64,000 nt of DNA from contig NZ_AUGC01000007.1 in assembly GCF_000426825.1 (NCBI RefSeq), positions 124,001-188,000 of the forward strand, written 5' to 3'. Position 1 is the first letter of the stretch. The number at the start of each line of letters is the position of its first letter. Made by a program: the position numbers and the translations under genes. A model generated the notes under the pieces. The model was not told the DNA's origin. It did not search any database and saw nothing but the letters and a program-made list of their open reading frames with translations. This document shows, piece after piece, positions 22,229-27,022 of this stretch. The DNA is from Thermonema rossianum DSM 10300 (lineage in GTDB: Bacteria > Bacteroidota > Bacteroidia > Cytophagales > Thermonemataceae).

Positions 22229-22726
22229 TTAATGGTAGATGCGCTGCGCGGTTTCGCTTAGTCGAACTTTTGATAACTCTCTGGCTGAAAACGGCGAAAG
22301 TGCTGTGTATTTAAGTTGTCTAAAATTGTCAGTAACTACGCCATCATAATTTGGTCCCGTCAAAAAGAGAACAACATTTGGTTTGATAATTTGTAACTCG
22401 TCTTTTATAACTGAAAAATGTTTTCTTTCAGTTTCATAAATAATGTAGCCGGGTGGAAAACCTTTTTCACCGGACTTTCCTATTTTGACAATGTTATTCC
22501 AGATGTATTTAATTTTTTTGTTCGAAAATTTTTCTTCAAACATTGTCCTGAACTTGCTGAACCCATTCCAAAATTGTCCACCGTAACTCCAACATTCTCC
22601 ACCGTTGTAAAACTTGTCGTCATAATCAAGAATTGGTTTTATGTGTTTGTGAATTGATGCTCCGTCTGTAAGAACTATGTCTGTATTAAAATCTCCCCAA
22701 TCATTAGTTTCCTGTCCGAAAATCAT
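22229..22726 (-). pseudogene. Truncated gene resembling uracil-DNA glycosylase-like proteins
   Basis: 165 residues from the first ATG, but the open frame extends upstream to 22789 with protein-like sequence (NPLLLYIDKENEWQNADIRV) and no start codon before the stop at 22790-22792. The 5' end therefore appears cut at the cassette boundary. MIFGQETNDWGD, IWNNIVKIG and IIKPNVVLFLTGPNYDG recall the UDG-fold layout (GQE strand, WNN-K, late TGP strand); this is a tentative resemblance. The last residues (SARELSKVRLSETAQRIYH) switch to GC-rich codons as the AT-rich block ends, suggesting loss of the 3' end and of the cassette's own recombination site. Confidence 0.45.
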
Positions 22727-22798
22727 AACACGAATGTCTGCATTTTGCCATTCGTTTTCTTTGTCAATGTAGAGCAGAAGCGGATTTGTTTAGGAATG

Positions 22799-22934
22799 GC
22801 ACACAACGGTTTGCATATGGCTTGTGACGGTTTAGAAGCGTTTTCCTGTCCAACGAAACCAAAGCTGGCTACGAAGCGAAAAATCTTGCTGGCAGCCGTT
22901 CACCCACCATAAGCTATATGCTTTGTTGTGTGGC
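22799..22934 (-). repeat. attC-like recombination site 1 (136 bp)
   Basis: On the minus strand it starts GCCACACAAC (complement of 22925-22934) and ends GTTGTGTGC (complement of 22799-22807); the inner seven bases ACACAAC/GTTGTGT are perfectly complementary. AAC is followed after 14 bases by ATGGTGGG. The second half has CCGTCAC, CATATGC and ACCGTT. It lies between the lipoprotein gene and the truncated gene. Confidence 0.65.
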
Positions 22935-22942
22935 GTTTTATT

Positions 22943-23476
22943 TTAATTCGTATGTTTTCTAATCAATATTTTGTTCTCTAAATACCAAGATTTACCATTG
23001 TCGCCTGTTCCAAAAAAGAAGTCAGGATGTCCATGGTAATTAGGGTTGCTATTCAATAATTCTTCTCGTATATCGTTTGGAAGCCAATCAAAATTGAATT
23101 CCTCTTTCTTAAAATTTGGTGCGTCATACTCTGTATTTCTGTCAAACTCATAGAATTTCTCCATTGTAACTGTGTCAAAGTACAAAAGTGCTTCAAGAGA
23201 ATAGTCAGATGGTCCAGATACTGAAATTCGCTTGTTTTGCCCTAAATTGTCAATATAAGTGTACTTGAATTTCACAGAAATAGGTTTGTAGGTCGAAAAG
23301 TCAAGTAATTTTCCGAGTTTATCAATGTCTGTTGAAATAGTTTCAGTAACGTTCTTAGATTTCACTACTTCTTCATTCTCTCCAGCTTTTTCAGAGTTTT
23401 TGTTAGCCTGCCGATCACAGGCAAACAATAGAGAAGACGTCAATAAAAATGCCAATATGTATTTCAAGTTATTCAT
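22943..23476 (-). CDS. Cassette-borne lipoprotein, function unknown
   Basis: 177 residues. The signal peptide MNNLKYILAFLLTSSLLFAC has a good lipobox (LLFAC) and is followed by a charged, Lys/Glu/Asn-rich linker (DRQANKNSEKAGENEEVVKSK), so the protein should be lipid-anchored in the envelope. The mature domain has a strand-rich part (ISVKFKYTYIDNLGQNKRISV) and an acidic-aromatic C-terminus (FNFDWLPNDIREELL, HPDFFFGTGDNGKSW). I recognise no family. It is AT-rich, unlike the flanking chromosome, and lies between two attC-like sites as the only gene of its cassette. Confidence 0.65.
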   Translation of the reverse strand: MNNLKYILAFLLTSSLLFACDRQANKNSEKAGENEEVVKSKNVTETISTDIDKLGKLLDFSTYKPISVKFKYTYIDNLGQNKRISVSGPSDYSLEALLYFDTVTMEKFYEFDRNTEYDAPNFKKEEFNFDWLPNDIREELLNSNPNYHGHPDFFFGTGDNGKSWYLENKILIRKHTN

Positions 23477-23484
23477 ATCTTAAT

Positions 23485-23620
23485 GCCACATAGCAGTCTT
23501 GTATATGAAAAGTAGGCGGTTTCGGATCACTTCACTGTCAACCAAGCACAAATGTTGATAGAAGCACTGCACTTGATTTAAGCAAGTCAGCCCCCATTGC
23601 GGCAAACGGCTGTTACAGGC
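23485..23620 (-). repeat. attC-like recombination site 2 (136 bp)
   Basis: On the minus strand it begins GCCTGTAAC (complement of 23612-23620), an exact complement of the GTTACAGGC that begins the 437-aa cassette. AAC is followed after 14 bases by ATGGGGG. The second half, CCGCCTACTTTTCATATACA then AGACTG, aligns with the second half of site 3. It ends GCTATGTGGC (complement of 23485-23494), where the expected GTT has become GCT. Confidence 0.65.
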
Positions 23621-24944: not shown

Positions 24945-24967
24945 TATAGCGGTGTCTCTTTAAGCTT

Positions 24968-25104
24968 GCCTGTAACGGTCTCGTGTATGAGCAGTGGCGG
25001 GATTTTCCGCACCTAGTTTCATATTTGCAGTGCCGTTTGTTTTATTCATTTTTGTTCCAATATTAGCACTTTGCCCGCCATTGCTTATAGACAATGTTGG
25101 CAGC
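24968..25104 (-). repeat. attC-like recombination site 3 (137 bp)
   Basis: The best-preserved site. The inner arms AAGCAATGGCGGG (complement of 25074-25086) and CCCGCCACTGCTC (complement of 24989-25001) pair at 11 of 13 positions. The outer box GCTGCCAAC (complement of 25096-25104) is an exact complement of the GTTGGCAGC that begins the DUF262 cassette at 27003-27011. The last box is GTTACAGGC (complement of 24968-24976). AAC is followed after 14 bases by ATGGCGGG. Confidence 0.7.
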
Positions 25105-25120
25105 TGGTATTTTAGTTGTC

Positions 25121-26950
25121 TTATCTATTAAAAATAAATTTCACAATTCTGTTAGCAGCTTTTTCTGTTGCAGTGTCTATATCTTCTTTTGTCCATGTAT
25201 CTTTAGGATAACTAACAAGGCTTTGCGCTAATGCATATTTACTATCTTTATACCCAGCTTTACCTTTAATCGATTTTTGTTTTTTGGTTTTAAACCATTC
25301 ATTACCAATCGATTTATTTATAACTTCTTCAAGTAGAATCTTATTACCAAGTTTGTTTACAACCCGTATAAATTCTTCTTTGTCTGTTATTCCAGCATCT
25401 TGTTGTATTGTGGTAATGTTTTTACCACTTGCGGGCATTATATGTTCAATATTTATCTTTTCTGTAAGATCAAATTCTATTCCTTTACTTTTTGAGTAAA
25501 TATATTCGTTGAGAAATACTAGAAGGTTTTTTTCGTATTCAAGGATAGCTTCTTTTATGCTTTCTTCAGACCAATTTTTATTTATATGCTCGTTGAAATC
25601 ATTTTTAATAGTTTCAATTGATACGTTCTTATCAACAAATTTTATGTTTTCACCGAATAAAAAAGTCTTGAATTTAGAACTAGAATAACCTGCATCGCTT
25701 AATTCCAAAATTGTAAATAATCTCAATAAACATTCACATATATCCAAAACTATTTCTTGATTGATTTCATTTGGTTCAAAACGAAATAAGTAACTAGTTA
25801 AAAACAGCTTTGCGTTTTCATTAAATTTTAGAAGTAATTTAATTATAGGATAGTCCTTAACTTCATTCCAAATATTTGTAATTTTAGATAAATTACTGCA
25901 TAATTCTAAAGGTTCCTTTAATAGTTCCTTTTTAATATCAGTATAATATCTTCTTAAACCAGGGGTTGTAACATCCACAGAAACACTACCATCTTCTTTT
26001 AGGCTGATATATTCTCTGTTTCTTGCACGATTAATATACATAAATTGTTGTAATACACCGTTTATATCTATTATCCTGCGATTATTCAGTTCACTAGCCA
26101 CTTTGTTTATATATTCCCACTGCTCGTTGAATGCTGATTTATTTTCACCGGCATTGGAATATAGTTGAGCAGAAATTATATCTGCATCGGTAAGCGGTAA
26201 TCCCGTTGAGTTAAGCGAGTTAAACATTGTTATTGCTTGCTCAATTTGCCAACTACGTATTTCTATCACTTGACATTCCTGTAGGAATTTTTTTGCAAAT
26301 TGATTCAATTGTGTTTCCGTCTTTTCACCTAATTTGGTATAGAAGAACTTGAAATTACGAAAATGGTTTGTATACTTATTGTCTTTTTGTTTGCGTGGTA
26401 TTTTGTGAACGCTTTGCTCTGCACTTTCATAGTTTTCAGCCTCGATAATTTTTGTCACTTCATCAGGATATAATTCATTTATAGATTTATTTTCTAAAAT
26501 CAAAATACCTTTAATTTTTGAGCTGTCTTTTAGCATTGACGGTATATCTTCATCTTCGGCTTTGTATAAAATTGCCATAATTTTATTTCTATTCGCTATA
26601 AGACCGGCTTTTAATGCTTCTGACTCTTCGTCATTAGGAACTTTTGGAATAGCTTCATTTAACCTTAATAGTAAAGCTTTAAGTAGCAAAAGAAAAGTAG
26701 TAGTCCTTTGTTGTCCATCAATTAGACTGAATTTGTTTGCCAATGAACAGTCAACAATGATTGTTCCGAAAAAATAGGGGTCACTTGCATCTGAAGAAAT
26801 AAATGCTTCAATGTCTTGCCATAACTTGTCACATTGTGTTATGTCCCACGAATAGCTACGTTGATATTCAGGAATTACGAAATTCTCAACTTTTTTCAGT
26901 TTTAGATATTCACTAATCAGTTTTAGATTTGGTTCTATATTTTTTGCCAT
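25121..26950 (-). CDS. DUF262/DUF1524 protein, GmrSD-like nuclease
   Basis: 609 residues from ATG 26950 (MAKNIEPNLKL); the open frame continues upstream to 27013 only because the cassette boundary happens to stay open. The N-terminal DUF262 domain has IPEYQRSYSWD (about 26-36) and the hallmark DGQQRTT (about 78-84), the ParB-like nucleotide site. The C-terminal DUF1524 domain has EHIMPAS (about 500), a His-Me/HNH-type nuclease motif, then LGNKILLEEVINKSIGN. This fusion matches GmrSD-type modification-dependent restriction enzymes, which cut DNA with modified bases using NTP. It is very AT-rich and the only gene of its cassette, with no methylase beside it. Confidence 0.85.
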   Translation of the reverse strand: MAKNIEPNLKLISEYLKLKKVENFVIPEYQRSYSWDITQCDKLWQDIEAFISSDASDPYFFGTIIVDCSLANKFSLIDGQQRTTTFLLLLKALLLRLNEAIPKVPNDEESEALKAGLIANRNKIMAILYKAEDEDIPSMLKDSSKIKGILILENKSINELYPDEVTKIIEAENYESAEQSVHKIPRKQKDNKYTNHFRNFKFFYTKLGEKTETQLNQFAKKFLQECQVIEIRSWQIEQAITMFNSLNSTGLPLTDADIISAQLYSNAGENKSAFNEQWEYINKVASELNNRRIIDINGVLQQFMYINRARNREYISLKEDGSVSVDVTTPGLRRYYTDIKKELLKEPLELCSNLSKITNIWNEVKDYPIIKLLLKFNENAKLFLTSYLFRFEPNEINQEIVLDICECLLRLFTILELSDAGYSSSKFKTFLFGENIKFVDKNVSIETIKNDFNEHINKNWSEESIKEAILEYEKNLLVFLNEYIYSKSKGIEFDLTEKINIEHIMPASGKNITTIQQDAGITDKEEFIRVVNKLGNKILLEEVINKSIGNEWFKTKKQKSIKGKAGYKDSKYALAQSLVSYPKDTWTKEDIDTATEKAANRIVKFIFNR

Positions 26951-27002
26951 TTTTCTTTTTATATTTAGTTGTTGTTTTCTTAGTTGAGTCCTGTTTACAC
27001 TT

Positions 27003-27022
27003 GCTGCCAACACTCAAATATA
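27003..27022 (-). promoter_or_regulatory. Head of the cassette array: first recombination box and Pc-like -7 box
   Basis: GTTGGCAGC on the minus strand (complement of 27003-27011) starts the first cassette. Only 3 bases upstream is a perfect Bacteroidota -7 box TATATTTG (complement of 27015-27022). I found no good -33 TTG at the right distance. A start near 27008 would transcribe the whole array, as the Pc promoter does in integrons. Confidence 0.4.

Follow-up and report, generated by a model that had tools for sequence, protein, structure and literature searches.

What kind of element is the AT-rich island at positions 22229-27011 of the window, the 64,000-nucleotide stretch of the Thermonema rossianum DSM 10300 genome that we analysed (contig NZ_AUGC01000007.1, positions 124,001 to 188,000)? 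An initial annotation, made from the sequence alone, had described it as an array of single-gene cassettes with integron-like recombination sites and no integrase. We conclude, with a probability of roughly 0.87, that this region is what remains of an integron-like cassette array belonging to a Bacteroidota system that has its own recombination sites, its own attI-like site and a tyrosine recombinase lacking the insertion of the integron integrase IntI.

The island, whose G+C content is 0.329 as compared to 0.501 elsewhere in the window, is bounded on one side by an HlyD-type gene that ends at 21272 and on the other, at 27457, by an isochorismate-synthase-like gene. Its cargo lies entirely on the minus strand: a GmrSD/DUF262 gene, a gene for a 437-amino-acid protein, a small putative-lipoprotein gene and a fragment of a fourth gene. 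The three palindromes (sites C, B and A) lie 7-14 bp past the first three stop codons, in agreement with the cassette array that had been annotated. Cassette 1 (24976-27011, minus strand) consists of the GmrSD/DUF262 gene (open reading frame listed as 25121-27013) and site C; cassette 2 (23494-24976, minus) of the 437-amino-acid protein gene (23631-24944) and site B; and cassette 3 (22807-23494, minus) of the gene for the 177-amino-acid putative lipoprotein (22943-23476) and site A. The sites themselves are given on the plus strand, which is the bottom strand of the window cassettes and the strand modelled for sites; with flanks included they span 24965-25106 (C), 23483-23622 (B) and 22796-22935 (A). 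The annotation had counted four genes separated by the three palindromes. Three of these genes belong to complete cassettes; the fourth (22229-22807, minus) is a remnant with a truncated gene (22229-22726) that no terminal site follows.

All three sites contain the core AAC-N14-ATGG(N)GG. Site B is the most degenerate, with AGC replacing AAC at one end. As had been claimed, each complete unit starts with letters complementary to the beginning of its own terminal site: GTTGGCAGC (27011) pairs with GCTGCCAAC of site C at 9 of 9 positions, GTTACAGGC (24976) with GCCTGTAAC of site B at 9 of 9, and GCTATGTGGC (23494) with GCCACACAAC of site A at 8 of 10. The complete units open with GTT, except that unit 3 opens with GCT.

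The window sites are members of a large family. A one-sided site pattern, searched in relatives before a covariance model was made, gave clustered copies, with matches in 13 of 79 genomes including that of Thermonema rossianum. The covariance model R1 was then built on a seed alignment of 28 sites, among them the three of the window. In this alignment 91.7% of the cells are paired (77.3% when shuffled) and 13 of 21 base pairs are altered on both sides, values that none of the shuffles attained. Across the family the site is a palindrome of 140-200 nt that closes each cassette. In its bottom-strand fold, a short R stem (AAC/GTT) that is particular to the cassette is combined with an asymmetric internal loop and with a long stem that is conserved. 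R1 sites were found in 47 of the 79 relatives and in 125 of the 296 phylum genomes sampled (42%). Some sites in one relative, G043 (loci L038, L041 and L042), are about 205 nt long, their inner part being longer.

To measure closure beyond the window, we compared six letters of the cassette start with the cassette's own site in 145 adjacent site pairs, mostly from relatives. The mean match was 4.12 of 6 letters, against 2.06 (standard deviation 0.10) with shuffled partners, and 74 pairs matched perfectly, against 1.5% in an all-against-all comparison. The reverse-direction control gave a mean of 1.89 and no perfect match. The 82 closed cassettes have a median length of 808 bp, and in 72 of them the longest open reading frame lies on the top strand. 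Cassettes have also moved as precise units. G043 carries two arrays in which 37 and 56 sites were detected, all of them on a single strand, and 177 of 226 ends of repeated blocks in this genome fall within 5 nt of a crossover GTT (about 2% by chance). One 818-bp cassette stands at two places in array 2 with 100% identity, and both arrays contain an identical 468-bp cassette. Together with the covariation of the sites and the attI-like motif described below, closure and cassette movement uphold the integron-like reading of the sites that the sequence had first suggested. The integrases at the heads of the two G043 arrays (L037, L040) are near-identical (99.7% over 1.6 kb), the arrays have many cassettes in common, and many ~360-bp units turn up repeatedly in them.

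An integron should also have an attI. At 25 loci we searched the interval between the integrase and the first site detected for a match to the first cassette's own site, and 23 loci gave a 9/9 match, in 15 of them no more than about 160 bp from the integrase. The motif TTGCGTATATacatga stands before GTT in many integrase-linked loci (TTGCGTATATacatga^GTT). A weight matrix was built on 20 attI sites from other genomes, the window being excluded from training. By this matrix the window array start (27011, minus) ranked first of 1808 GTT positions, and in a GC-matched control only 2 of 19300 positions elsewhere scored as high. The motif is variable: on being left out of the training set, several of its sites score low. 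The attI-like site of the window (27012-27037, minus) carries the motif TGCGTATAT immediately 5' of the first cassette's GTT, with the crossover at 27011.

In relatives, many of the top-scoring IntI-like genes stand at the heads of such arrays. When named genomes were scanned with an array-recombinase alignment, 19 further integrase loci with sites nearby came up, and 66 of 67 sites there aim the cassette start at the integrase. Similar arrangements occur in G043, G054, G016, G041, G055, G042 and G027 and in other families. The integrase reads towards the array as a rule and away from it in a minority (L107, L182, L184, L258 and L265). Array recombinases score 190-231 bits with the IntI profile TIGR02249, whose cut-off is 265. 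The distance from the box I arginine to HxxR is 88-93 residues, as compared to 130 in canonical IntI and 92-95 in Xer. Among solved structures, VchIntIA (2A3V) is the nearest in sequence, and about 43 of its residues are unmatched at the position of the IntI-specific insertion (patch or I2). This insertion of roughly 40 residues is therefore missing from the array integrases, and the system, although it appears to work like an integron, falls outside the IntI definition. The search for a recombinase with the IntI-specific patch that the annotation had proposed would have missed it for the same reason.

In a phylogenetic tree, all 23 array-linked recombinases and a degenerate copy from Thermonema rossianum fall into one Bacteroidota clade. 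Canonical IntI forms a separate clade (100/100). Integrases from family f20 cluster with those of Algoriphagus and Aquiflexum, which would suggest Cytophagales as the order, while the named array-linked relatives indicate the phylum Bacteroidota. The 609-amino-acid array integrases (L037:579-1566) have a long N-terminal extension that appears by eye to be made of repeated modules of about 80 residues; it has no Pfam match, and such modules are unusual among tyrosine recombinases.

What remains of the system in Thermonema rossianum? The IntI profile search of this genome gave three tyrosine recombinases and zero matches over the cut-off. Two are Xer-like. The third (L001:1228-2088, minus strand of contig C10, about 550 bp from the contig end) is a degenerate member of the array clade that groups with the outward-reading integrases (99/93, on a long branch). 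It has lost the lysine of KG.KDR, and carries H->R in HxxR and GH->GI. We found no convincing attI beside it in the sequence up to the contig end. No intact integrase was found in the assembly, which is 97.5% complete, so that missing sequence could still hold one. The annotated lack of an integrase is thus correct at the locus and, within the assembly searched, for intact genes, but the genome does contain the degenerate copy on contig C10. A fourth, lone site lies on contig C9 (L122:10014-10153); no good match for the start of its cassette was found. It follows a gene for a 105-amino-acid putative membrane protein and adjoins a transposase-like gene.

In G001, a genome of the same genus, both flanks of the island are in order (84% and 72% protein identity) and the gap between them (L243:5600-9870) holds other AT-rich DNA, namely transposase pieces and a long leucine-rich-repeat gene. 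The gap is therefore a variable spot. Taken with the degenerate integrase, the lone site and the truncated fourth gene, it leads us to conclude that the window array is a decaying remnant whose integrase is gone or inactive.

We propose the following mechanism. The integrase would act on the bottom strand in its folded form, with cleavage at AA^C (equivalent to G^TT on the top strand), and would excise or capture circular cassettes, one per event. Each would be inserted at attI or between cassettes, and such cutting of a circle followed by insertion would leave every cassette start complementary to its own site. In Thermonema rossianum, the attI, three cassettes and one cassette fragment would then persist between conserved host genes, with activity probably lost.

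Several observations weigh against this reading. The closure of window cassette 3 is imperfect. The R1 scores of the window sites (95.5 bits and E 5e-18 for site C, 68.5 bits and 4.5e-12 for B, 85.8 bits and 7e-16 for A) are not independent, since these sites were in the seed. In G002 (L044-L046, contig C27) most cassette starts are a constant GTTGAGGCGCAA that does not match their own sites, perhaps reflecting a different array organisation. The array-recombinase clade has a support of just 85/90 and takes in ten recombinases with no detected site nearby. A search for an integrase remnant beside the window attI (26900-27560) gave chance-level matches only, and it is for this reason that we infer, rather than observe, the loss of an integrase there. 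Finally, the activity of the patch-less integrases is a prediction from sequence for every member.

The missing remnant also bears on the most serious alternative, which is that the array formed elsewhere and that attI and cassettes arrived as one horizontally transferred block in a hypervariable gap, with no working integrase ever at this place. The different AT-rich DNA in the G001 gap agrees with such a history, as does the position of the degenerate integrase on another contig, in a subclade that otherwise consists of outward-reading integrases. On the other hand, this genome contains both an integrase of the right clade, albeit degenerate, and a fourth site elsewhere, which suggests that the lineage once ran the system itself. 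We regard a transferred block as possible, though the less probable history.

A second alternative concerns the chemistry. The units could move as double-stranded circles in an Xer/dif- or Cre/lox-like manner, the palindromes serving as cruciforms or paired binding sites. A predicted structure of an array integrase (pLDDT 87) does resemble XerA (5hxy: Z 24.4 over 253 aligned residues, though with a root-mean-square deviation of 12.4), as compared to IntI (2a3v: Z 21.8, deviation 5.3, 257 aligned). Array recombinases also have no I2 helix, which in IntI docks the extrahelical bases (PMC7790495). The sites themselves argue for single-strand folding. Two G.T wobbles conserved in the seed (26/28 and 23/28) pair on the cassette bottom strand only. 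The bottom-strand fold is the more stable one in 123 of the 155 sites that differ between strands (top strand in 32), in line with the attC-like folding that was to be checked. The R box is cassette-specific and variable while the stem covaries. Double-stranded movement is accordingly doubtful, and a preference for the folded bottom strand would fit these features better.

It could also be supposed that the region is the integrase-less remnant (CALIN) of an ordinary IntI integron and that the patch-less recombinases are incidental. Canonical IntI does occur in the phylum (85 of 296 genomes over the cut-off) and CALINs are common (PMC9024848). However, none of the 79 relatives has a match over the IntI cut-off, and in the phylum at large the occurrence of R1 sites is not associated with that of canonical IntI (odds ratio 0.67, p 0.15). 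Zero sites were found at 32 other loci hit by the scan, most of which come from other phyla and many of which carry canonical IntI, or at L273, a canonical IntI locus of the same phylum. We therefore rejected canonical IntI as the owner of the sites. As the window attI motif was, in addition, learned from patch-less loci, this origin is very improbable. Least credible is an ordinary operon or gene cluster with transcription terminators or an interspersed repeat as spacers, for although the hairpins follow closely on the stop codons and all island genes share one strand, it is already contradicted by units that each close with their own site, by repeated cassettes that stop at crossovers and by the ordered flanks in G001 with different DNA, not the same genes in synteny, between them, and by the 437-amino-acid protein gene, for which a search of the other 240 genomes of the order gave no homologue.

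The array system thus stands beside, rather than within, the known ones. With integrons and superintegrons (IntI, attI and attC, as in Vibrio) it shares single-gene cassettes that end in a palindromic site, the G^TT crossover with cassette starts complementary to their own sites, an attI beside the integrase, large same-strand arrays and the bias towards bottom-strand folding. It differs in that the integrase lacks the IntI insertion and stays below the TIGR02249 cut-off, in its sites, which have a long conserved stem sequence and did not turn up beside canonical IntI, in the attI motif, which is the family's own, and in the usual orientation of the integrase towards the array. A CALIN likewise has a few sites in a row and no integrase next to them, but it is defined by canonical attC models (in IntegronFinder, by two or more attC with no IntI nearby), whereas the window sites are of the Bacteroidota family and have kept an attI-like site beside them. 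XerA, XerC and XerD have the same fold and a similar spacing of the catalytic boxes; the array recombinases stand in a separate clade within Bacteroidota, often have long N-terminal extensions and are linked to cassette arrays.

Surveys have recognised integron integrases by the additional domain of IntI (PMC2426708, PMC9668308). This domain, or its I2 helix, has been described as needed for cassette capture (PMC7790495, citing Messier and Roy 2001) and for single-strand recombination (PMC7790495), and the origin of integrons has been discussed in terms of a "lack of intermediates" (PMC7790495). According to the available part of one classification (PMC8138268), the insertion is incompletely conserved among "integron-like" simple tyrosine recombinases, and the members without it are not tied there to cassette arrays, sites or attI. 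We found no description of cassette arrays with patch-less integrases in the open-access literature, a scope that leaves aside preprints and most subscription papers, and an integron type without the patch is apparently previously undescribed. We lean towards a separate Bacteroidota class of integron, in which a tyrosine recombinase without I2 would capture and shuffle single-gene cassettes via folded sites, either as a surviving early stage of integron evolution or as an independent solution. A natural family that has arrays, sites and attI but no insertion makes the necessity of I2 directly testable. IntI-based tools would miss a large pool of mobile genes, likely defence genes included: the one complete integron that IntegronFinder 2.0 reported for Bacteroidetes is in Salinibacter (PMC9024848), against sites in 42% of the phylum genomes sampled here.

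The annotation had also taken the cargo to include likely defence genes, which is supported for the GmrSD/DUF262 gene only. Its product matches Pfam GmrSD_N (5e-35, 121.8 bits; gathering score 33.2) and GmrSD_C (3.5e-13, 50.1 bits; gathering score 23) as well as PADLOC HEC-06 (1.1e-42), while a search of viral contigs with this protein gave no relative. The listed start of its reading frame (GTG, 27013) lies upstream of the crossover, and the first ATG is near 26950. The 437-amino-acid protein has no NCBIfam match and just a sub-threshold DnaD_N match in Pfam, and an Rfam scan of the region gave no match. The 177-amino-acid protein has no family match in Pfam or NCBIfam, and its signal peptide, which by eye ends in LLFAC, makes it a putative lipoprotein. 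The product of the cassette 4 gene is 47% identical to a 241-amino-acid protein, whose first ~37 residues are missing in the window. The gene is cut directly past the site A crossover, its C-terminus diverges too, and the foreign sequence seems to stop near 22270.

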